From: Candidatus Eiseniibacteriota bacterium
GTDB lineage: Bacteria > Orphanbacterota > Orphanbacteria > Orphanbacterales > Orphanbacteraceae
DNA length: 64,000 nt
Assembly: GCA_029262235.1 (NCBI GenBank)
Contig: JAJCZU010000002.1
Span: forward strand, 1,170,041 to 1,234,040
Direction: 5' to 3'
Below, one piece after another: positions 52,231 to 62,041 of this stretch. Position numbers and translations under genes: made by a program. The stretch's first letter is position 1. Every line of letters starts with the position of its first letter. The notes below the pieces were generated by a model, which saw only the letters and a list, made by a program, of their open reading frames with translations, did not search any database and was not told the origin of the DNA.

Positions 52231-52764
52231 ATGAGATCCCTGCTTGTACTCATCCCCGCACTCTTACTCTATGCGACGGCGGCAAACGCGCAGTACAGCA
52301 TCGAGCTGGATGGAGATGGAGTACTGGGCAACGGCCCGGACTACGTGTTCGCTCTCGCAGCAAACGCGGTATCCGTGGATGCCTATGTCACGGGACAGGC
52401 GTCACAAGTCTACTCTGCCAACTTCACGCTTCGACACCTGGGCCCCGGCACATGGAACTCCTATACGCATGCTACGGGATGGACGACGACGCCGGATCAG
52501 AACCAGGGTGGTAACGACTGGCTCGTGCAGGCCACCGATTTCGGCTTCCTCGGTCTCGTACCGCCGTTTCTCCACGGTACGGCTCACTACACGTTCGACG
52601 GTCCTTTCGGCATCGTGGCGGTCTCGATCGAACAACCAAACGGCTGGTTTGATTCCAGTTTCACGACCGGTCCATTCGGGAACAACACAGGGCTCATTTT
52701 CGGACACATCGTTTTTTCCACAGAAGAATCCAGCTGGGGAGCGGTGAAGGAGCTGTTCCGGTAA
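52231..52764 (+). CDS. Secreted tagged protein, family 1 copy A1
   Basis: A 177-residue secreted protein of unknown family. The signal peptide is residues 1-20 (cleavage after 'ANA'). The mature part starts 'QYSIELDGDGVLGNGPD', where D-G-D-x-x-L-x-x-G-P-D could bind calcium. It continues as a beta-rich domain with 'YSANFTLRHLGPGTW' and 'PPFLHGTAHYTFDGP'. The last residues are the conserved tail 'EESSWGAVKELFR'. No function is known to me. ATG at 52231 follows CAGGAGG. The 159-base gap after miaA has only a weak promoter-like pair (TTGCGG at 52158, TAGGAT at 52183). This copy pairs with the closely similar protein at 53452. Confidence 0.88.
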   Translation: MRSLLVLIPALLLYATAANAQYSIELDGDGVLGNGPDYVFALAANAVSVDAYVTGQASQVYSANFTLRHLGPGTWNSYTHATGWTTTPDQNQGGNDWLVQATDFGFLGLVPPFLHGTAHYTFDGPFGIVAVSIEQPNGWFDSSFTTGPFGNNTGLIFGHIVFSTEESSWGAVKELFR

Positions 52765-52825
52765 TCAGCGGGCGAAAGAGTTGTCGTGGAATACATAGCC
52801 ACCCGGGAGGCAGGAGGCAGGTCCC
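52765..52825 (+). repeat. Duplicated intergenic leader, copy 1
   Basis: This stretch between the first and second tagged genes (CAGCGGGCGAAAGAGTTG near its start, then the purine-rich GGAGGCAGGAGGCAGG before the ATG) closely matches 54001-54056. It holds a strong ribosome-binding site and marks duplication of a two-gene unit. Confidence 0.85.
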
Positions 52826-53365
52826 ATGAAATCGATTCTCGCACTCAGTATTGCAACCATACTGCCCTCGACAGCGGTAAGCGCGCAATACAGCATCGAG
52901 ATGGACGGCGACGGCATTCTCGGCAACGGTCCCGACTACGTGGCGGCAGCTCCTTCGAGTACGGTACCGATTGACGTATACGTAACGGGACAGGCCTCGG
53001 CTGTCTATTCCGCGAACTTCACGATACACTGGATCGGTCCGGGCAGTTGGATCCCCTATGCGCACGCAACAGGCTGGACAACTTCTCCGGATCAAGGCAC
53101 ATGGTGGCCGCTCATTCAGGCCACCGACTTCACGTTCACCGGGCTCGTTCCGCCGTTTCTGCACGGAACCGCGCGGTTCACCTACGACGGCCCCGTAAAC
53201 CTCGTCACGGTCTCGATTATTGCCCCGAACGGATGGTTTGATTCCAGCTACACATCCGGTGTATTCACGAACAACACGGGGATCACTTTCGGCATCGGGA
53301 TCGATGATCCGCCGACGGCCACCGAGGAGTCGAGCTGGAGCGACATAAAGGAAATGTTTCGCTGA
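52826..53365 (+). CDS. Secreted tagged protein, family 1 copy B1
   Basis: A 179-residue secreted protein of the same family. The signal peptide (1-20, 'VSA' then 'QYSIEMDGDGILGNGPDYV') is followed by 'YSANFTIHWIGPGSWIPYAH', 'PPFLHGTARFTYDGP' and 'NGWFDSSYTSGVFTNNTG'. It ends 'TATEESSWSDIKEMFR'. It is most similar to the protein at 54057 (both share 'NGWFDSSYTSGVFTNNTG'). ATG follows the GGAGGCAGGAGGCAGG leader. The function is unknown. Confidence 0.88.
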   Translation: MKSILALSIATILPSTAVSAQYSIEMDGDGILGNGPDYVAAAPSSTVPIDVYVTGQASAVYSANFTIHWIGPGSWIPYAHATGWTTSPDQGTWWPLIQATDFTFTGLVPPFLHGTARFTYDGPVNLVTVSIIAPNGWFDSSYTSGVFTNNTGITFGIGIDDPPTATEESSWSDIKEMFR

Positions 53366-53451
53366 GTGGAACAGGCATAAGAATCGGACAGCTGTTTACC
53401 AGACGATCGACTCGATTCGAGGTACTAGCTGCGAGGGAGGAGAGTGGCATT

Positions 53452-54000
53452 GTGAGATCGTTCCCGGTACCTGTTCTAGCTCACCTTCTGCTGGCTGTGT
53501 GCGCAGGCGCGCAAGATCTCAGTATCGAATTGGACGGCGACAACATTCTCGGAAACGGTCCGGACACTTTGATTGTATCTCCGTTCAGCAGTGTCCCCAT
53601 CGACGTGCACGTAACGGGCTTGTCGGTGATTGTCATTTCCGCGAACTTCACGCTTTCTCACAGCGGCCCGGCCACCTGGAATCCGTATTCGCATGCCACG
53701 GGCTGGACGACGCAACCCGACCAGCACTACGGCGGCAACGACTGGCTCATACAGGCGACCGACTTTGCTTTTCAGGGCTTGTACCCACCATTTCTGCACG
53801 GTACGGCGCACTATACATTTGACGGTCCCGTGGGCCTCGTCACGGTCTCGATCGTGGAGCCGACAGGGTGGCTCGGTAGCCAATTCATTACGAATTACTT
53901 TGTGAACAATATCGGCCTGACGTTCGGCATCGATAGCGAGGATCCGCCGACCGCCACCGAAGAATCCAGCTGGGGCGCTGTGAAGCAGTTGTTTCGGTAA
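53452..54000 (+). CDS. Secreted tagged protein, family 1 copy A2
   Basis: A 182-residue member of the same family, with signal peptide (cleavage near 'AGA'), 'QDLSIELDGDNILGNGPD', 'YSHATGWTTQPDQHYGGNDW' and 'PPFLHGTAHYTFDGP'. It ends 'TATEESSWGAVKQLFR'. The 'GGNDWL(V/I)QATDF' stretch and the '-WGAVK-' tail match the protein at 52231, making these two the A copies. The start is GTG at 53452, with GGGAGGAG about 10 bases upstream. The function is unknown. Confidence 0.86.
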   Translation: MRSFPVPVLAHLLLAVCAGAQDLSIELDGDNILGNGPDTLIVSPFSSVPIDVHVTGLSVIVISANFTLSHSGPATWNPYSHATGWTTQPDQHYGGNDWLIQATDFAFQGLYPPFLHGTAHYTFDGPVGLVTVSIVEPTGWLGSQFITNYFVNNIGLTFGIDSEDPPTATEESSWGAVKQLFR

Positions 54001-54056
54001 ACAGCGGGTGACAGAGTTGCCGTACAACTCCGCAGCCAGGCAGGAGGCAGGCTCCC
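54001..54056 (+). repeat. Duplicated intergenic leader, copy 2
   Basis: It matches 52765-52825, including ACAGCGGGTGACAGAGTTG and the GGCAGGAGGCAGG ribosome-binding region directly before the ATG at 54057. Confidence 0.85.
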
Positions 54057-54599
54057 ATGAAATGGTTTCTTGCTCTCAGCACCACAATCATCTTGTTCTC
54101 TACCGGTGCAGGCGCTCAGTACAGCATCGAGATGGACGGCGACGGCATTCTCGGGAACGGCCCCGACTTCGTGACTACCGCGCCAGGGGATACCGTGTTC
54201 ATTGACTTCTATGTAGCGGGACAGGCCTCGGCTGTCTATTCCGCGAACTTCACGATCAAGTGGTCAGGGCCCGCATGGTGGAACGGGTACACGCATGCCA
54301 CAGACTGGACAACACCCGGGGTTACCGACATGCCCCAGTGGCCGCTCATCCAGGCAACCGACTACACGCTCACGGGATTGATTCCGCCGTTCCTGCACGG
54401 CACGGCAAGATACACATACATTGGCCCCGTGAACGATGTCACTGTCTCGATTATCACCCCGAACGGGTGGTTTGACTCCAGCTACACATCCGGCGTATTC
54501 ACGAACAACACGGGGCTCACTTTCGGCATCGGGATCGAAGATCCGCCGACCTCGACTGAGGAATCGAGCTGGAGTGATGTGAAACAACTGTTCCGCTGA
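54057..54599 (+). CDS. Secreted tagged protein, family 1 copy B2
   Basis: A 180-residue protein with signal peptide (to 'AGA'), 'QYSIEMDGDGILGNGPDFV', 'VYSANFTIKWSGPAWW', 'PPFLHGTARYTYIGP' and 'NGWFDSSYTSGVFTNNTG'. It ends 'TSTEESSWSDVKQLFR'. It is the closest relative of the protein at 52826. ATG is preceded by the duplicated leader. The 204-base gap after it, up to 54803, shows no gene. The function is unknown. Confidence 0.88.
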   Translation: MKWFLALSTTIILFSTGAGAQYSIEMDGDGILGNGPDFVTTAPGDTVFIDFYVAGQASAVYSANFTIKWSGPAWWNGYTHATDWTTPGVTDMPQWPLIQATDYTLTGLIPPFLHGTARYTYIGPVNDVTVSIITPNGWFDSSYTSGVFTNNTGLTFGIGIEDPPTSTEESSWSDVKQLFR

Positions 54600-54803
54600 T
54601 CAATCCACTCCTTACGCACTACGGATCCTGCGCAATAATCGAAACGCGACGTGGGCGTGCTCTTCGGGCTCAGCGTCTACCAGTAGATCGACTGACCTGC
54701 ATCAATCACTCTTTTCGTGACACCGGACCCAGTGTTCCGTCGCTTTCCTTCTCGAGAGGCCAGGTCGCCATCCCGCGAACGGCCCAAAAAGGAGAGCATT
54801 CTC

Positions 54804-55424
54804 ATGAAAAAGCATTCGGACTGGTACGGGTCGCCGTTCCGGCCTGCCACGACAAGCACGCTCGCTATGATGACACTCGCCCTGATCGCACCCCTGTCGC
54901 CCTCTGAGGCAGGCACAACGCCGGGGGTGACAGCCGGCTACTTCAAGAACGAAGTGCTGTTTACGGCTACCGCGTTTGCCGGTAACGCAGGAAGTACCGA
55001 CTGGGTGGGATTCCTGGAGTTCGACCTGACGCCGCTTGCGCCCGGACCTCACGATAGCGTCTCACTGTTTCTTGCGGACAAAGGGGGCACCGGCAACACG
55101 GCAACGACCGCTGTTTTTTACTTTTCGGGCGACGGCGTGGAAACGCAGGGCGACCTTACGATTCCGGCGCAATACCTGTTCGACATCACAAGACCGCTTA
55201 GCGGCGAAACCACTGAACACGACGTGACAGATGCCGTCAATGATCTCCTTGCGGCGCAGGCCACACACATCGGGTTCCGATTTCACGGTACGCAGTCGAA
55301 CCGCACGGACGCATTCGGGTTCGAGTATGATAACAACCTGGTCTGGGATGCCACGTCCGTTTCCGTGCCTCTGCCGAGTCGCGAAGTCTCCTCATGGAGC
55401 GGGGTGAAGATTCTCTTCCGCTAG
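54804..55424 (+). CDS. Secreted tagged protein with DNRLRE/CBM-like beta-sandwich
   Basis: A 206-residue secreted protein unrelated in its main domain to the four upstream genes. The signal peptide is about residues 1-38 with a long n-region. The mature part resembles DNRLRE/CBM96-type beta-sandwich domains: 'GFLEFDLTPLAPGPHDSVSL' then 'HDVTDAVNDLLAAQATHIGF'. The protein ends 'SREVSSWSGVKILFR', the same tail as the neighbours. ATG at 54804 follows AAAGGAG, giving a better start than the earlier in-frame codon at 54717. It may bind a carbohydrate, which is inferred only from the fold resemblance. Confidence 0.82.
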   Translation: MKKHSDWYGSPFRPATTSTLAMMTLALIAPLSPSEAGTTPGVTAGYFKNEVLFTATAFAGNAGSTDWVGFLEFDLTPLAPGPHDSVSLFLADKGGTGNTATTAVFYFSGDGVETQGDLTIPAQYLFDITRPLSGETTEHDVTDAVNDLLAAQATHIGFRFHGTQSNRTDAFGFEYDNNLVWDATSVSVPLPSREVSSWSGVKILFR

Positions 55425-55443
55425 AATCTCTTTCCCCTGTCGA

Positions 55444-55599
55444 TTGATTTTCGAATCCGATCTGTCGAATCTGGCACCGGGCCCGCATGCGAACGTAACG
55501 CCGCACTTCTACGACGGCGGCGGCACGAACTCGGCGACGACTTCGATCTACTACTACACAGCGGACGGCATCGGCACGCAGTCTTTCAATAGCGCGTGA
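55444..55599 (+). pseudogene. Fragment of a second copy of the DNRLRE-like gene
   Basis: An open stretch of 51 codons reads 'FESDLSNLAPGPHANVTP' then 'GGGTNSATTSIYYYTADGIG', aligned with 'FLEFDLTPLAPGPHDSVS' and 'GGTGNTATTAVFYFSGDGVE' of the gene just upstream. It has no start, signal peptide or C-terminal tail and ends in TGA. It is a degraded tandem duplicate within the 274-base gap before the sigma factor gene. Confidence 0.82.
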
Positions 55600-55698
55600 C
55601 GCCCGGTACGAGGCCCTCGTAGCGTAAGAGACGCGATCCGGCTGCTGACATGATATGGTAATGGTTGCTCCTCGAGCCAGAAATGGGGCGCCGCTGCC

Positions 55699-56265
55699 AT
55701 GCAAGACACACCCGCAACCATCACGCGCCTTCTTCTCGACTGGCGCGCCGGCAGCGAGCAGGCCCTGGACGAACTCGTGCCACTGGTTTATGCGGAGCTC
55801 AAGGGGATTGCCGCTCACCTCATGATCAGAGAGAGCGGGAGTCACACCTTGCAATCGACGGCGCTTCTTCACGAAGCGTATGGCCGTCTGGTTTCGTCGG
55901 ACATCGCCTGGCAGGATCGCACGCATTTCTTCGCGGTGGCGGCGCGCACCATGCGCCGGGTGCTGACCGACCATGCGCGGGCGAAGGGACGGATTCGGCG
56001 CGGGGGAGAGTGGAAGCGCGAGCTCCTGCACGAGAACATTCCGGTGCCGTCGCCGCTCGCATCACCGGAGGTGCTGCTTGCCCTCGACGACGCTCTCCAG
56101 AAACTGCAGATTCATGACGAAAGGAAAGCGCAGGCGGTGGAACTGCACTACTTCGGTGGCATGAACTGGGACGAGATCGCCGAAGTGCTGCAGGTCTCGC
56201 GATCAACCGTAGCCCGCGAGATTCGTTTCGCCAAAGCCTGGCTCCTCGGAGAGCTGCAGAAGTGA
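55699..56265 (+). CDS. ECF sigma factor (ECF43/TIGR02999-like)
   Basis: A 188-residue sigma factor with region 2 in 'LVYAELKGIAAHLMIRESGS' and 'LQSTALLHEAYGRLV', a middle 'DRTHFFAVAARTMRRVLTDH', and region 4 with the helix-turn-helix 'NWDEIAEVLQVSRSTVAREI' (about 155-174). The 'H-F-x-A-x-A-A-x-x-M-R' signature is characteristic of the ECF43 group. No anti-sigma factor is encoded; in this group the partner is a Ser/Thr kinase, and one follows directly with a GTGA overlap. ATG at 55699 begins the family-like N-terminus. Confidence 0.92.
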   Translation: MQDTPATITRLLLDWRAGSEQALDELVPLVYAELKGIAAHLMIRESGSHTLQSTALLHEAYGRLVSSDIAWQDRTHFFAVAARTMRRVLTDHARAKGRIRRGGEWKRELLHENIPVPSPLASPEVLLALDDALQKLQIHDERKAQAVELHYFGGMNWDEIAEVLQVSRSTVAREIRFAKAWLLGELQK

Positions 56266-58751
56266 CCGCCCACGATCCCACCCGCTGGCGCCGCATGCAG
56301 GAAATCTTCGAAGCCGCACTGGCGCTTTCAGGGCCCGCGCGCGATTCGTACATCGACAAAGAGTGCGCAGGCGCCGCGGGACTCGCCGAAGAAGTGCGCG
56401 CCCTCATTCGTAACAGCGAAAGCGCAGGCTCGTTCCTCGACAACGGGCTTCCGAACGTCGCCGATTCGTTCCCGGCGCTCCAGCTGCTTCAGCCGGGCGA
56501 AAGACTCGGCCCCTACCAAGTACTGAAGGAGATCGGCCGGGGTGGAATGGGCGCCGTTTATCTCGCCGTTCGCGCGGACAACGAATACAAACGCAACGTC
56601 GCGATCAAGGTGATGCGCGTCGAGTCGAGCGCAGGCGATCCGACCCGGCGATTTCGCGCCGAGCGCCAGATCCTGGCCACGCTTGATCACCCCCATATCG
56701 CCGGCTTGATCGACGGCGGCACAACCGCAAGTGGCCTCCCGTATCTCGTCATGGAATTCGTGGAAGGGGAGGCGCTCGATACGTACTGCGCGAAGAACGA
56801 ACTCACTCTCGTCGACCGGCTCGCGCTCTTCACACTGATCTGCGACGCCGTTTCTCACGCGCATCGCAAGCTGATCATCCATCGGGATCTGAAGCCCGGC
56901 AACATTCTCGTTACGAAAGCAGGCACACCGAAGCTTCTCGACTTCGGGATCGCGAAGCTGCTCGACACGGAGATGACGCCGTTCACGCTCGCCGTAACCG
57001 GAACGGGCGCGCGCCTTCTGACCCCCGAGTACGCGAGCCCCGAGCAGGTGCGCAACGACCCTGTCACAACGGTCAGCGATGTGTACGCCCTCGGCGTCGT
57101 GCTCTACGAACTCGTGGCCGGCCGGAAGCCGTATGAGCTCGCTTCGAAGAGCGCGGCGGATATCGAGCGCACCGTGTGCGAAACGGAACCGGTGGCGCCA
57201 AGCATCGCCGCCGCGAACACGTCATTCAAAAAGGGAATCACCGGCGACCTCGACACGATCACCATGACCGCACTCCGCAAGGAACCCGACCGCAGATACT
57301 CTTCCGTCGATGCGCTTGCACAAGACGTGCGGAACCATATCCGGGGGCGCCCGATCACGGCGCATCCGGATACGCTCGGTTATCGCATGGGGAAGTTCGT
57401 GCGGCGCAATGTCGGCGCCGTAATCGCCGGGACCATCGTCATCACGGCCCTCGCCGCGAGTTCCATCGCCATGACCGCGCTCTATCTGCGAGCCGAGTCC
57501 GCGCGCGAGCACGAACAGGTGGCGCGCATGGAAGCGGAGACCCAGCGAGAAACGGCCGAGACCATCAGTCAGTTCCTGCGCGAGATGCTGACACAGGCGA
57601 GTCCGCGTGAAACGCAGTCGGCCGACCAGATTCCGATTCGCGACGTGCTCGACCAGGCCGCGGATCGCATCGAAACGGACCTTGCGGAGCACCCCGCTCT
57701 TGCCGCGGAACTCTACGTGACGATAGGCGCCGTGTATCGCGACCTCGGGCTCTTCACGGACGCGATCGAGAATCATGCTGCCGCGGCCGATCTCGTGCGT
57801 GCGCTGCCATCGCCTGAACCCCGACAGCTTGCCGAGAGCCAGATCGAACTCGGCCTTTCATACTTTCGAAACGGCGAATACGAACCTGCGGAAGAGGCCG
57901 CGCGCGCAAGCTATGCAATCGTTTCCGCAATCGATCCGACGCCCCTCTGGTCGCACCGGATCTCGCGCGAACTGAGCCGGATCCTGGCCGATGTCGGCAA
58001 GCTTGACGAAGCCGAGGCGCTCGCCACTGAAACCGTTGCCTTGCTGCGCAGCCGCCCCGACGCTTCCCCGGATGATCTCGCCTGGGCGCTCGACGCCCTC
58101 GGAACCGCGCTCTTTCGCCTGGAGAAGTTCGAGGAAGCCGAGATTCCATTGCGCGAAGCCCTGGCTCTGTCGCGCGAAGTGCACGGCCCCGCTTCGCCCG
58201 GCTACGCCCACATGCTGAACACGCATGCCATCATTCTGACGCGTACCGATCAGCACAAACAGGCGGCCGCCGAACTCGAGGAAGCGCTCACGATCCTCCA
58301 GTCCATCTATGAGGAAGGACACATGGAGCGCCTGACCGCCGAGTCGAATCTCGCCGACGCCCTTCTTCACGACACGCAGTATGCGAAGGCCGAAAAGTAC
58401 TATCAGAACGTGCTCGCGACCCTCGCCCGGCAGTACGGGGCCGACCATCCCGCCGTCGCCACGATCGCCAACAACCTGGGCCGCTGCTACGAGCATCAGG
58501 AGCGTTACGACGATGCGATCCCGCAGTATGAGCGGGCGCTCGGCATGTACCGCAGCATCCTGGGGGAGGAGCATGCCTACGTCGCTCTCGTCGAGCTGAA
58601 CCTGGCGCGCGTTCTGCGAGGGGCCGGCGATCGGGCCGGCGCACTGCAGCACGCCGGAACCGGCCTCGCAATCCGACGCGAGCTTTACGACGAGGACTCA
58701 CCGCAGGTCGCGGAGGCGGTGGCGCTCCTGGACGAGTTGCAGGTGGATTGA
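56262..58751 (+). CDS. Membrane Ser/Thr protein kinase with TPR sensor domain
   Basis: An 829-residue PknB-type kinase. The glycine loop is 'IGRGGMGAVYLAV' (91-103), catalytic lysine K116, 'HRDLKPGN' with D209, and 'DFG' at 227-229. One membrane helix (about 384-408) separates the kinase from a C-terminal TPR region (about 480-825) placed outside the cytoplasm. GTG at 56262 overlaps the sigma factor stop, so the two form a signalling pair; the kinase would phosphorylate and activate the ECF factor, as known for related pairs. All catalytic residues are present. The regulated genes may include the neighbouring secreted proteins, which is inference. Confidence 0.93.
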   Translation: MTAHDPTRWRRMQEIFEAALALSGPARDSYIDKECAGAAGLAEEVRALIRNSESAGSFLDNGLPNVADSFPALQLLQPGERLGPYQVLKEIGRGGMGAVYLAVRADNEYKRNVAIKVMRVESSAGDPTRRFRAERQILATLDHPHIAGLIDGGTTASGLPYLVMEFVEGEALDTYCAKNELTLVDRLALFTLICDAVSHAHRKLIIHRDLKPGNILVTKAGTPKLLDFGIAKLLDTEMTPFTLAVTGTGARLLTPEYASPEQVRNDPVTTVSDVYALGVVLYELVAGRKPYELASKSAADIERTVCETEPVAPSIAAANTSFKKGITGDLDTITMTALRKEPDRRYSSVDALAQDVRNHIRGRPITAHPDTLGYRMGKFVRRNVGAVIAGTIVITALAASSIAMTALYLRAESAREHEQVARMEAETQRETAETISQFLREMLTQASPRETQSADQIPIRDVLDQAADRIETDLAEHPALAAELYVTIGAVYRDLGLFTDAIENHAAAADLVRALPSPEPRQLAESQIELGLSYFRNGEYEPAEEAARASYAIVSAIDPTPLWSHRISRELSRILADVGKLDEAEALATETVALLRSRPDASPDDLAWALDALGTALFRLEKFEEAEIPLREALALSREVHGPASPGYAHMLNTHAIILTRTDQHKQAAAELEEALTILQSIYEEGHMERLTAESNLADALLHDTQYAKAEKYYQNVLATLARQYGADHPAVATIANNLGRCYEHQERYDDAIPQYERALGMYRSILGEEHAYVALVELNLARVLRGAGDRAGALQHAGTGLAIRRELYDEDSPQVAEAVALLDELQVD

Positions 58752-58810
58752 GCGATTCGGCGGTGCCTTCCGCCCGTCGCATGCAGACGGGGGCGAGGCC
58801 GTTCTGCTGC

Positions 58811-58838
58811 TTGACCGAGCAGACTGTCCGTGTATCAT
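58811..58838 (+). promoter_or_regulatory. Sigma-70-type promoter for the LamG-like gene
   Basis: TTGACC (58811-58816), 16 bases, TATCAT (58833-58838). The -10 box covers the first ATG of the frame at 58837, so translation from there is unlikely and the start is taken as 58924. The boxes match those upstream of the tRNA cluster. Confidence 0.58.
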
Positions 58839-58923
58839 GAGGCTACCCCAGCTGACCACAATGGCTCTCCAGGCCGCAATGCACAGTGTGCAAAAGAAAC
58901 TTCAGCGACTTCGGAGGAGCACA

Positions 58924-60054
58924 ATGCGTACGTTGATCCCGCTCGTTCTTATCAATCTATTCGCGTGTCAGAGCGCCTTTTCGCAGGAAATGATTCAGGG
59001 GAATATCGACCAGGGCGAGATTGTTCCACTGGATACGACATTCTGGGATATCAGCGCCCAGGCCCATGTCTTCGAGCGCTATGAGGGGAAGGACGCGATC
59101 TACATTCAGGAGGGCTTCGCAACACTGAAAGAAACGAAGTTCCTGAACGGTACGATCGAGTTTGATGTTTACCTGACCGAGCGCCAGGCGTTTCCCGGTG
59201 TTCGTTTTCGTGCCGATGACGGCGGCAACATGGAATCGTTCTATCTGAGGCCGCACCTGTCGGGCAAGCCGGACGGGAATCAGGCTGTCCCGGTCATCAA
59301 CGGAATCTCCGCGTGGCAACTCTATTTCGGCCCCGCGTACTCTTTCGCGTACGAGTATCAATTCGACGGCTGGACTCACGTAAAACTCGTGATCCACGAC
59401 AGACGTGCCCAGGTCTATCTCGACTACTCGGAAACACCACACTTGTCGTGGAATCTGAAGCATGCGCCGCGCGAAGGACTCGTAGCCATAGGCGGCAGCT
59501 TTGCTCCCATGCACTATGCCGATTTCAGGATCGACACGAATTCCATGGAGATCATCGACTTCCATGTGGTCGAAACTGAACCTGTGGAAGGCGCCATTTC
59601 CGAATGGGAGATTTCCAGCAAGTTCGAAGAAGCGCTCCTGTCCAATCCCGAGAAGATAGAGGGCCTGATCGACACGGTTCATTGGAAAGGCAAAATCCGG
59701 ATCGAAGAGAACAGTGCCGCCAATGTCTCCTGGGTTGCCACACGTTACGGAACACCGGGCAACACCGTGTTCGCGCGCCTCCGAGTCGAGTCGGATCGAG
59801 ACCAGCTGAAACTGTTCGAGTTCGGTTACAGCGATCGGGTCGTGGCGATCGTGAATGGCAGGGCCATTTACAAGGGGAACAACAAATGGCGAACCCGTGA
59901 TTATCGTTATCTCGGGACCATCGGCCTCTTCGACGCCATCTACGTTCCCCTCGTGAAGGGGGAGAACACGATTCTGCTGGCGGTCTCTGAAGACTTCGGC
60001 GGCTGGGGCGTCATGGGAAGATTTGAGAACCAGGACGGGCTGCAGCTCAGGTAG
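58924..60054 (+). CDS. Secreted LamG/concanavalin-like protein without the C-terminal tail
   Basis: A 376-residue secreted protein with signal peptide (1-20, cleavage near 'AFS'). A jelly-roll-like domain (about 45-195) contains 'FDVYLTERQAFPGVRFRAD', 'DGWTHVKLVIHDRRAQVYLD' and 'YADFRID', typical of the DUF1080/LamG fold. A second beta-rich region (about 215-376) includes 'TVFARLRVESDRDQLKLF'. It ends 'NQDGLQLR' and lacks the S-W-x-x-V-K-x-x-F-R tail, so the tail is not universal for secreted proteins here. ATG at 58924 follows GGAGG. The role is unknown; carbohydrate binding is possible. Confidence 0.8.
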   Translation: MRTLIPLVLINLFACQSAFSQEMIQGNIDQGEIVPLDTTFWDISAQAHVFERYEGKDAIYIQEGFATLKETKFLNGTIEFDVYLTERQAFPGVRFRADDGGNMESFYLRPHLSGKPDGNQAVPVINGISAWQLYFGPAYSFAYEYQFDGWTHVKLVIHDRRAQVYLDYSETPHLSWNLKHAPREGLVAIGGSFAPMHYADFRIDTNSMEIIDFHVVETEPVEGAISEWEISSKFEEALLSNPEKIEGLIDTVHWKGKIRIEENSAANVSWVATRYGTPGNTVFARLRVESDRDQLKLFEFGYSDRVVAIVNGRAIYKGNNKWRTRDYRYLGTIGLFDAIYVPLVKGENTILLAVSEDFGGWGVMGRFENQDGLQLR

Positions 60055-60163
60055 CGCCCCGGACGAGCAGGAAGCGGAGCAGACGTTGTCTTTGAAGAAG
60101 ACTTTCGCGTAAACTCCTGGCACGTCGGATACAGAGACGAGTCCAACCTCGTAAGTCGTTGAT

Positions 60164-60201
60164 GCGGGAATAGCTCAGTTGGTAGAGCATCAGCTTCCCA
60201 A
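60164..60201 (+). pseudogene. 5' half of tRNA-Gly (CCC), cut in the anticodon loop
   Basis: GCGGGAA, D-arm GCTCAGTTGGTAGAGC, anticodon 5' stem TCAGC and the loop TTCCCAA with anticodon CCC are intact and parallel the tRNA-Gly at 41048. After 60201 the expected GCTGA stem, T-arm and acceptor are absent. I found no matching 3' half downstream in the window. The break coincides with the change to AT-richer sequence. Confidence 0.85.
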
Positions 60202-60697
60202 CGGAAAATAGGCACTTTTGCCCCGACCACTTAAGGTGTGTCACTGCAATGCAATAGAATTTACCCCAGGGGTTTACTCTCCTGGGGTAAATCATTTTCT
60301 AGGAATGAATATGAAAGGAAATGAGGGGTTTGACACCCGATCTTGTAGCAGTTTCTGTAGCAGTTTTTCGATGCACTAAACAGGCTGATGCTCTTCATGA
60401 GTTAAGTGATGTGTTTTCAATACCGGGAATTAGGGCATCAGCAAAGTCGGCTACACGGTGTCCGTCCTGGCCGCTCCCAGACTGGGTGGAAGTGGGCAGT
60501 TGCTCAGGAATCTGCTACATAATCGAAAACAGGAGAAATCTCCTCTCAGAGCGATTCTAAGACCTTCACTTTTCCAGGGTAACTCAACCTACAGAGAATC
60601 AGAGATCTCCTCTCCTGGAGGCTCTCCGCAAGCCTGAGAAGCACCACTTGTGGCATAATGGAATTCAACTCGATCAACCACAACCTGGAGGTACAAC
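60202..60697 (+). other. Start of AT-richer island, no confident gene
   Basis: These 496 bases follow the cut tRNA. They hold a perfect 12-bp hairpin (60259-60292), a near-direct repeat GTAGCAGTTT (around 60343-60368), and a repeated ATCTCCTCTC (near 60536 and 60605). A 79-codon open frame at 60321-60560 has no ribosome-binding site, no recognisable domain and odd composition, so I leave it uncalled. Base use from here to 63731 is visibly lower in GC, with many AGA/AGG codons that are rare elsewhere. Confidence 0.6.
60259..60292. terminator. Perfect 12-bp hairpin (terminator-like)
   Basis: ATTTACCCCAGG (60259-60270) and CCTGGGGTAAAT (60281-60292) are exact inverted repeats around a 10-base loop, followed by CATTTTCT. 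It lies 58 bases beyond the cut tRNA and may be a terminator or part of an element end. The T-tract is short, so intrinsic termination is uncertain. Confidence 0.5.
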
Positions 60698-61744
60698 GTG
60701 AGACGCTTCCCCTATTCAGCAGTGGTGTTGGCACTCGCAGTTTCTATCGCTTCCCCAGTATCAGCTGGGGATGATCCGATGTTCCAGTTCACATTCTTGG
60801 CTGGAACACTTCCTGACACACTCTACGCTGCTGACAGCCCATTCATGGCACTTTCCACCATCAACTCTGGAGACACTCTGGTGATCGAAGCGGGTGTAGA
60901 GATCCAGTTCACTACGGGAACAAGTTTGATCGTGAACTCAGGAACGGAACTCTTCAGTAGCGAAGGAACTTCGTCGAACCTAGTTGAACTCAAAGATGCC
61001 GGGCAGGGCCAATGGGGAGGCGTTCTCCTGAGAGGATCGTCGGGTGCAGCCCCATTCAAGATTAGGGAAATAGAATATACAACGGCTACAGGGGCTTCAT
61101 CCGGTATCACCATAGAGTCGCAGCAGAATATGGTGAACACTACGTATGCGTTACGAAACTTCGAATCTTTCGGAAACACGCATGGTCTGACTCTGAGCAC
61201 ATCAGGCTCAGCGGTTGGATCACACATTGCGGTGGAATTCACAGATTGTACGTTTTCTAACAATACTGATCACGGCGTGAAAGCTGATTTCGGCGGGAAC
61301 TACCTCAGTACACGCTATGACAACTGCTACTTCGAGAACAACGGCGACTGCGGTCTCTTCATGAATTCAACCTGCACAACATGGGAGGTGTCTAACTCCG
61401 TCGTATCTGGGAATGATATCGGATTTAGGGTTCTGGCTGCTGATTCGGTGGTGGTAGTCAACTGGAACGTAATACAAAACAATGTCACCTATGACGTAGA
61501 AACAACCACCAACGTATCGACTTTCACGAGTCATAATTTCAATTTCAACTCATGGAGTTCTGGAACGACAGCAGAGATGCTCAGTCTGGGAACCTTTGCG
61601 GACATCACCAGCATCTACGACTGGTGGGAGAACTCAAGCTACAGCGTCATTGACTACTCAGGCTACTCAGGTGGTCCCACAGGTGTAGCTGAAGGTCGAT
61701 TTGAGGAGAGCACCTGGACCGACGTTAAGGAAATGTTCAGATAA
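60698..61744 (+). CDS. Secreted tagged beta-helix protein
   Basis: A 348-residue secreted protein: signal peptide 1-23 ('VSA' then 'GDDPMF'), then a right-handed parallel beta-helix pattern with short hydrophobic/Asn-rich rungs such as 'FTDCTFSNNTDHGVKADF' and 'YDNCYFENNGDCGLFMNS'. It ends 'RFEESTWTDVKEMFR', the same tail as proteins at 52231-55424 although composition and family differ. The N-terminal 'VIEAGVEIQFTTGTSLIVNS' is typical of beta-helix caps. GTG at 60698 follows CTGGAGG. A polysaccharide-binding or lyase-like role is possible; no catalytic residues are assignable. Arg codons are largely AGA/AGG or mixed, unlike the GC-rich neighbours. Confidence 0.85.
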   Translation: MRRFPYSAVVLALAVSIASPVSAGDDPMFQFTFLAGTLPDTLYAADSPFMALSTINSGDTLVIEAGVEIQFTTGTSLIVNSGTELFSSEGTSSNLVELKDAGQGQWGGVLLRGSSGAAPFKIREIEYTTATGASSGITIESQQNMVNTTYALRNFESFGNTHGLTLSTSGSAVGSHIAVEFTDCTFSNNTDHGVKADFGGNYLSTRYDNCYFENNGDCGLFMNSTCTTWEVSNSVVSGNDIGFRVLAADSVVVVNWNVIQNNVTYDVETTTNVSTFTSHNFNFNSWSSGTTAEMLSLGTFADITSIYDWWENSSYSVIDYSGYSGGPTGVAEGRFEESTWTDVKEMFR

Positions 61745-61759
61745 CAGAGGAGACCAACA

Positions 61760-62041
61760 ATGAAACGCTTCTTCTACGCATCCATGGGAATTCTGGCACT
61801 GGCAATCAGCTTCCATCTGGGAGCAAGCACGGTGAAGGCTTCTGGCTCCACGCAAACAGTGGCGGCCTTTGGTTTGTACGTGTACGACCAGTCCAGTCAT
61901 GTGGCGGTCACACCAGACGGAGATCTGTATACTTCTAATGGTGCCGGTGAGTATCCTTATGTCTTCCAGGGCAACATCTTTGGTGGCACTACCAAGACCG
62001 AAGATGCCAGCTGGGGTGAAGTCAAAGAAATGTTCAGATAA
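61760..62041 (+). CDS. Small secreted tagged protein
   Basis: A 93-residue protein with a signal peptide (1-27, cleavage near 'VKA'), about 50 residues with no recognised domain ('VAAFGLYVYDQSSHVAV', 'VFQGNIFGGTT'), and the tail 'KTEDASWGEVKEMFR'. It is the smallest tagged protein in the window. ATG at 61760 follows AGAGGAG and lies 15 bases after the beta-helix gene, so the two are probably co-transcribed. The function is unknown. Confidence 0.8.
   Translation: MKRFFYASMGILALAISFHLGASTVKASGSTQTVAAFGLYVYDQSSHVAVTPDGDLYTSNGAGEYPYVFQGNIFGGTTKTEDASWGEVKEMFR

Follow-up and report, generated by a model that had tools for sequence, protein, structure and literature searches.

Seven exported proteins at the locus

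The window analysed here, a stretch of 64,000 nt from the genome of a Candidatus Eiseniibacteriota bacterium (GenBank assembly GCA_029262235.1, contig JAJCZU010000002.1, positions 1,170,041 to 1,234,040), encodes seven exported proteins that share a C-terminal tail of about 12 residues. This tail is the subject of our report: dozens of unrelated exported proteins of this little-known bacterium, and of its relatives across Bacteroidota-type phyla, carry the same short peptide. An original prediction, made from the DNA alone, had described the seven as ending in variants of one peptide, and all of them do so, each directly at its stop codon.

The seven genes and their tails all lie on the forward (+) strand. 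The first four encode the four-copy family, a group of predicted cohesin-like beta-sandwich proteins. The gene at 52231..52764 encodes a product with the C-terminus TEESSWGAVKELFR before the stop (tail EESSWGAVKELFR plus stop at 52723..52764), and the second, at 52826..53365, ends in TEESSWSDIKEMFR (tail EESSWSDIKEMFR plus stop, 53324..53365) and is modelled as a beta-sandwich at residues 23-157, a linker and a helix at residues 171-177. The third and fourth members occupy 53452..54000 (C-terminus TEESSWGAVKQLFR; tail EESSWGAVKQLFR plus stop, 53959..54000) and 54057..54599 (C-terminus TEESSWSDVKQLFR; tail EESSWSDVKQLFR plus stop, 54558..54599). The family goes unrecognised by Pfam and NCBIfam, and the cohesin-like fold was predicted by structural comparison (Foldseek best E 2.9e-8 for 52231-54599; model meed72c3248a4). 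The examined part of the genome holds 19 members, several of them in tandem.

The fifth gene, at 54804..55424, encodes a DNRLRE/CBM96-like protein, identified by a weak match under the curated cut-offs, with the C-terminus REVSSWSGVKILFR (tail EVSSWSGVKILFR plus stop, 55383..55424). The sixth, at 60698..61744, encodes a right-handed beta-helix protein ending in FEESTWTDVKEMFR (tail EESTWTDVKEMFR plus stop, 61703..61744), and the seventh, at 61760..62041, a 93-residue orphan ending in TEDASWGEVKEMFR (tail EDASWGEVKEMFR plus stop, 62000..62041), of which a paralogue with a similar N-terminus lies elsewhere in the genome (C4:137813). The predicted starts are uncertain for three of the genes, where 53530, 54717 and 60779 are alternatives to 53452, 54804 and 60698, respectively. 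Between the two groups of tail genes (55699-58751) sit a gene for an extracytoplasmic function sigma factor (Sigma70_ECF) and, overlapping it by 4 nt, one for a Ser/Thr kinase-TPR protein; the pair is a possible regulatory unit.

In all seven, the residues immediately ahead of the stop codon fit [ST]-W-[GST]-x-[VIL]-K-x-[LMI]-F-R, against a chance expectation of approximately zero. At the DNA level, the pattern W..[VIM]K.[hydrophobic]FR-stop has seven matches in the window, which are those same seven proteins, and none in 100 dinucleotide shuffles. The predicted signal peptides (7/7 positive by a heuristic) and the spread of the tail over at least four unrelated domain types were borne out, as was the motif itself for the window; across the genome its variants are somewhat wider, with L also found at position -6 and Q occasionally replacing the final R.

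A modular, stop-anchored tail

The whole 4.47-Mb genome contains 63 strict DNA-level matches to the tail and none to the reversed pattern, an excess over expectation, as the original prediction required. To place these matches on proteins, genes were called with a hexamer coding model over approximately 1.5 Mb, giving 1261 proteins; the calls are approximations, and DNA patterns miss variants. The tail, in a relaxed form that ends in R or rarely Q, closes 80 of the 1261. Its core motif occurs 70 times at a terminus and three times internally, where composition predicts approximately 0.0002 termini among the same proteins. Variants ending in FQ lie at L228:8078-9632, L235:7969-8607 and L242:9224-10125, and some adjoin paralogues of the FR type.

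The tail marks exported proteins rather than cytoplasmic ones, as had been proposed. A signal peptide was predicted for 77 of the 80 tail proteins and for 509 of 1119 others (p = 1e-21), by a heuristic that is permissive and is not SignalP, so that the contrast between groups is what counts. About half of the 1.5 Mb had been selected around tail matches, and the same statistics were therefore also compiled for the longer contiguous stretches alone, although part of one of them (C4:1-400000) had itself been picked for its tail cluster; here the counts were 28 of 29 against 327 of 744 (p = 3e-9). The carriers are diverse, falling into approximately 36 unrelated passenger groups, and the tail is thus a modular element. 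Some passengers match families that are tagged otherwise elsewhere, including choice-of-anchor X, ExeM (GlyGly) and PepA (PEP-CTERM).

All three internal core motifs lie within one tandem array of lipoprotein genes on contig 4 (L217:4945-12542; C4:1092944-1100541). The array consists of a single family in which only some members carry the tail: two stop just before the tail linker, two have an internal tail, as though duplicates had fused, and one ends in the tail plus seven extra residues.

A logo of 36 unrelated representatives reads T(66%) A T(77%) E(83%) x [SAT] S/T W(100%) [GST] [ED] [VIL] K(100%) x [LMI] F(100%) R(88%) stop, and in this genome W and K are conserved in 100%, F in 98% and R in 93%. 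The S or T before the tryptophan and the acidic residue at -7 resemble a helix capping box. The hydrophobic moment of the tail is helical (0.64 against 0.40 for shuffled tails), with W, V/I, L/M and F on one face and K and R flanking it. In AlphaFold models of two unrelated carriers the beta-domain is well ordered, and a low-confidence linker connects it to a C-terminal helix that stands apart; this helix spans residues 171-177 in the four-copy protein at 52826 (predicted local distance difference test, pLDDT, about 79) and residues 119-130 in the single-copy family described below (pLDDT 65-70). Together these features point to a short, capped helix of amphipathic character, preceded by a flexible linker. 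The beta-signal of outer-membrane barrels was ruled out as an identity for the tail, because the hydrophobic spacing is helical and not alternating. The last 22 residues of the logo contain neither a membrane segment nor an LPXTG or PEP motif, as first described, and likewise no hydrophobic membrane helix, Gly-Gly motif or invariant Cys.

Alternation with the type IX secretion domain

The tail and the C-terminal domain (CTD) of the type IX secretion system (T9SS) are ALTERNATIVES. The two never occur together on one protein in this genome (0 cases among 80 tail proteins and 61 proteins with a terminal CTD, 55 of the latter having a predicted signal peptide by the same heuristic). Among 74 tail proteins there was no match to the T9SS CTD models TIGR04183 and PF18962, nor, at E<=1e-3, to TIGR04131 or a ChiA-type C-terminal model, and none of the NCBIfam or Pfam sorting models matches the tail. 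The tail replaces the CTD on related passengers: 19 tail proteins have a homologue in the same genome whose matching domain precedes a T9SS-type CTD, nine of them at E<1e-10, and the alternating families include the beta-helix proteins. The clearest pair consists of two beta-helix paralogues encoded approximately 1 kb apart and 40% identical over 314 aa, one bearing the tail (C10:10269-11396) and the other a CTD (C10:12372-13673). CTD proteins are also the main recurrent neighbours of tail genes in this genome other than tail genes themselves, an adjacency that is weak in statistical terms (13 observed against 7.1 expected, p = 0.03).

A second case comes from the Bacteroidota. In that phylum and its kin the tail is found on one orthologous protein of approximately 135 aa, made up of a signal peptide, a passenger that resembles FN3 domains, and the tail, and recognised by no family model. 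Its FN3 is the type that is placed directly before T9SS CTDs; of 18 other FN3 matches in Adhaeribacter, 10 have a CTD 19-34 nt downstream, among the CTD matches listed. Alternation of tail and CTD on the same passengers is seen twice independently, once in the genome studied here and once on FN3 in the Bacteroidota. The tail's lack of likeness to the T9SS CTD, which had been noted at the outset, stands, in that it matches no CTD model and shares no motif with it; what went unnoticed there is that these genomes do have a T9SS, and that on the same passengers the tail replaces the CTD.

The tail is widespread, and its copy number is bimodal. Seven genomes of the organism's own phylum hold 16-63 tail matches each and none for the control patterns. 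A contig scan, which took in isolates and metagenome-assembled genomes (MAGs) as named, the names and completeness of the MAGs being uncertain, placed the tail, among the matches listed, in Eisenbacteria, Krumholzibacteriota, Effluviviaceae, Latescibacterota, Zixibacteria, Calditrichota, Delongbacteria, Kapabacteria, Ignavibacteria and Bacteroidetes (Hymenobacter and Adhaeribacter included), with a few chance matches elsewhere. There is approximately one copy per genome in Bacteroidota, Ignavibacteria, Calditrichota and Zixibacteria; Eisenbacteria, Krumholzibacteriota and the organism's own phylum carry about 4 to 63. In 45 sequences of the single-copy family the tail is the best conserved part, its W, G, K, F and R being invariant from Ignavibacteria and Kapabacteria to Hymenobacter while mean column identity is 32%. 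The single-copy gene adjoins maf in many Ignavibacteria and Bacteroidota (L072, L079, L082, L122, L152, L162, L164, L167).

As a control, 115 genomes were scanned from the phylum of one exceptional carrier, the MAG Verrucomicrobia bacterium B12_G4 (G031; loci L276 and L281-L283). True stop-anchored matches were confined to that genome and one other, and the remaining matches end in TGG instead of a stop. Three tail matches in an alphaproteobacterial MAG, Reyranella sp. (G038, L110), are probably contamination.

The tail co-occurs with T9SS. Across 28 tail genomes, the T9SS translocon SprA was found in 27, a PorV-family protein over the cut-off in 27 and a C25 peptidase in all 28. In the genome studied here SprA lies at C2:830019-834620, and the C25 peptidase and PorV genes are neighbours (C2:677585-680877, starting at C2:677585 and C2:680014). 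T9SS type A CTD models match at 20-140 places per genome, and at least 139 in this one, among the matches listed. A sample of 198 Bacteroidota genomes, 154 with SprA and 44 without, contained the tail in 46, exactly once in each; all 46 have SprA, and none of the 44 SprA-negative genomes has a tail (hypergeometric 1.5e-6, with no correction for phylogeny).

A candidate sorting signal and its known counterparts

A peptide that is shuffled onto unrelated exported proteins, stands always at the C-terminus and replaces a known sorting domain is best read as a sorting signal. We favour the reading, with a probability of roughly 0.6, that Sec-exported proteins of T9SS-bearing bacteria use the tail in place of the CTD, as a new and very short C-terminal sorting signal anchored at the stop codon. 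Shuffling, stop anchoring and CTD replacement support the sorting, anchoring or assembly role first suggested, although that the tail acts as a signal is something we infer.

In this model, carriers would cross the inner membrane by means of the signal peptides that heuristic prediction supports. A capped amphipathic helix of 9-10 residues, whose C-terminal arginine is free and which is tethered by a flexible acidic linker, as the sequence pattern and the AlphaFold models (at moderate confidence) indicate, would then be bound by a dedicated receptor that is either periplasmic or located at the outer membrane, and binding would take the passenger to its destination, the outer membrane or the cell surface. 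The tail would thereby serve small passengers as the CTD of approximately 70-90 residues serves large ones. The receptor, the T9SS route and the final surface location are all steps that we infer; the weakest is the nature of the receptor, for which a T9SS-associated component, such as a PorV/PorP-type shuttle or the translocon, would be the most likely candidate. Type B CTDs have dedicated PorP/SprF shuttles that set their destination (PMC12618676), and such type-specific shuttles, deciding the destination of a CTD class, have a precedent in the literature (PMC12618676). More tentatively, and as a proposal that we would call possible but doubtful, the tail may be the address label of an undescribed Gram-negative sorting pathway, ancient in the Fibrobacteres-Chlorobi-Bacteroidetes (FCB) superphylum, whose receptor reads a 10-residue C-terminal helix with a free Arg and which stands beside T9SS rather than being a further CTD type, having shrunk to a single client in many Bacteroidota and grown to dozens in the organism's own phylum, Eisenbacteria and Krumholzibacteriota.

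Several observations weigh against a T9SS-linked signal. In 108 of the sampled SprA-positive Bacteroidota genomes no tail match was found, so T9SS as such can do without the tail, and the association between SprA and the tail is confounded by phylogeny. The Verrucomicrobia MAG has five tails together with CTD-like and C25 matches and a PorV match that is only weak, and it alone among the 28 tail genomes gave no SprA match; it is possibly incomplete or mixed. Lipoboxes occur in 8 of the 80 tail proteins, and lipoproteins are unusual among known T9SS cargo. Searches of the neighbourhoods of the tail genes and of the single-copy gene found no receptor gene; among 110 neighbours of the latter only housekeeping genes recur (maf 15, MatE 8, LPG_synthase_TM 6), and no T9SS gene does.

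Most of these observations, together with the small size of tail proteins (median 218 aa against 586 aa for CTD proteins), would fit a serious rival. In this reading the tail still directs localisation, but by a T9SS-independent route, for example by retaining small exported proteins at the outer membrane on its periplasmic side or by passing them to an outer-membrane receptor of its own, and its co-occurrence with T9SS reflects common ancestry. We consider this unlikely overall, given that the same passengers carry now the tail and now the CTD, each excluding the other, and that the 44 SprA-negative Bacteroidota genomes yielded no tail.

An assembly role is improbable. Here the tail helix would dock into a folded partner, perhaps the cohesin-like four-copy family, as a minimal dockerin-like plug of a surface or periplasmic complex; cohesins are the best structural matches of that passenger, and tail genes are often side by side (27 adjacent pairs). 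The cohesin-like family carries the tail itself, however, an EF-hand dockerin would need far more residues than the tail has, and each Bacteroidota carrier has one tail protein, so that an assembly of several carriers is not possible there. Nor is it at all likely that the tail binds membranes as a generic amphipathic helix and has no specific receptor. The character expected of such a helix is present, in the helical moment and in a hydrophobic face flanked by K and R, but membrane helices tolerate substitution and internal placement, whereas the tail keeps exact residues across phyla and a fixed position at the stop.

Two further explanations are very improbable. One reads the tail as a label for proteolysis or quality control, or as a peptide that arrests the nascent chain at the stop codon, which would suit the fixed position, the free Arg C-terminus and an avoidance of TGA stops; a degradation tag would not persist on so many products, and the approximately 80 diverse exported carriers have no downstream gene in common. 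The avoidance is seen in one TGA among 36 unrelated representatives against 46-48% in other genes (p about 1e-7), and becomes 12 of 80 when all tails are counted and 12 of 42 in the single-copy family; the tail genes ending at 52764 and 55424 are examples. It could stem from selection for an exact C-terminus or from inherited 3' ends, and as proof of such selection we set it aside, the bias being clear only in the unrelated representatives of this genome. The other is an anchoring tag of the exosortase, sortase or rhombosortase type, which has the same shuffling logic and some of the same passenger families. It was rejected on the distribution of the exosortase PF09721, which is absent from this genome and its six family relatives (0/7, each with 16-63 tails) and present in 6 of the 28 tail genomes overall; the tail also has no membrane segment and no LPXTG, PEP or GlyGly signature. 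Recent duplication of the 3' end of one gene, an artefact to which the few tandem arrays (the four-copy family, L227 and the lipoproteins on C4) might point, is hardly credible and was rejected, so that this ground for refuting the original prediction falls away: the passengers are unrelated and spread over many phyla, and tail DNA from unrelated genes has diverged to a mean of 66% identity over 27 nt with synonymous codons mixed and 0 of 630 pairs identical, so the tails are not one recently copied 3' end.

If the favoured reading is true, a 12-residue tail in place of a CTD would show the minimum needed for C-terminal sorting, provide a compact tag for surface display and give a common label to many proteins without any recognised domain. 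The single-copy protein of the Bacteroidota, with its signal peptide, FN3 and tail, allows the question to be put to the test in culturable organisms.

Literal motif searches of the literature, and the literature on T9SS signals, yielded no published description of the tail; the T9SS work covered contains no signal this short and no helical one, and neither it nor the family models supplied a named class, in keeping with the first description. The T9SS type A CTD (TIGR04183, PF18962) is alike in being a C-terminal module of Sec-exported proteins from the same passenger families and genomes, and in having a basic terminal residue at the stop codon or close to it (Arg in 46 of the 61 CTDs of this genome). 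It differs in being a beta-sandwich of approximately 70-90 residues, whereas the tail is a predicted helix of about 12 with no motif in common. The signals known for T9SS are folded beta domains with 43 or more residues (PMC11969387, PMC10202324). The short CTDs of Prevotella intermedia (43-55 residues) retain three beta-strands and motifs B, D and E (PMC11969387); they too are shortened signals in place of a full CTD, but the tail is without those motifs. The CTDs of types B and C (TIGR04131; ChiA family) are alternative C-terminal signals (PMC10202324) of about 100 residues with several conserved motifs, and tail proteins match neither. Short tags shuffled onto dozens of unrelated exported proteins are likewise the hallmark of PEP-CTERM/exosortase, GlyGly-CTERM/rhombosortase, MYXO-CTERM and LPXTG/sortase; those tags combine a membrane helix with a basic end, and the tail has no membrane segment, although it shares passengers such as choice-of-anchor X with these systems. 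Lastly, dockerins and encapsulin cargo peptides are also short C-terminal docking elements, and one tail passenger family is cohesin-like; dockerins, however, have EF-hand repeats that the tail does not, and encapsulin peptides are borne by cytoplasmic cargo, whereas the tails are borne by exported proteins.

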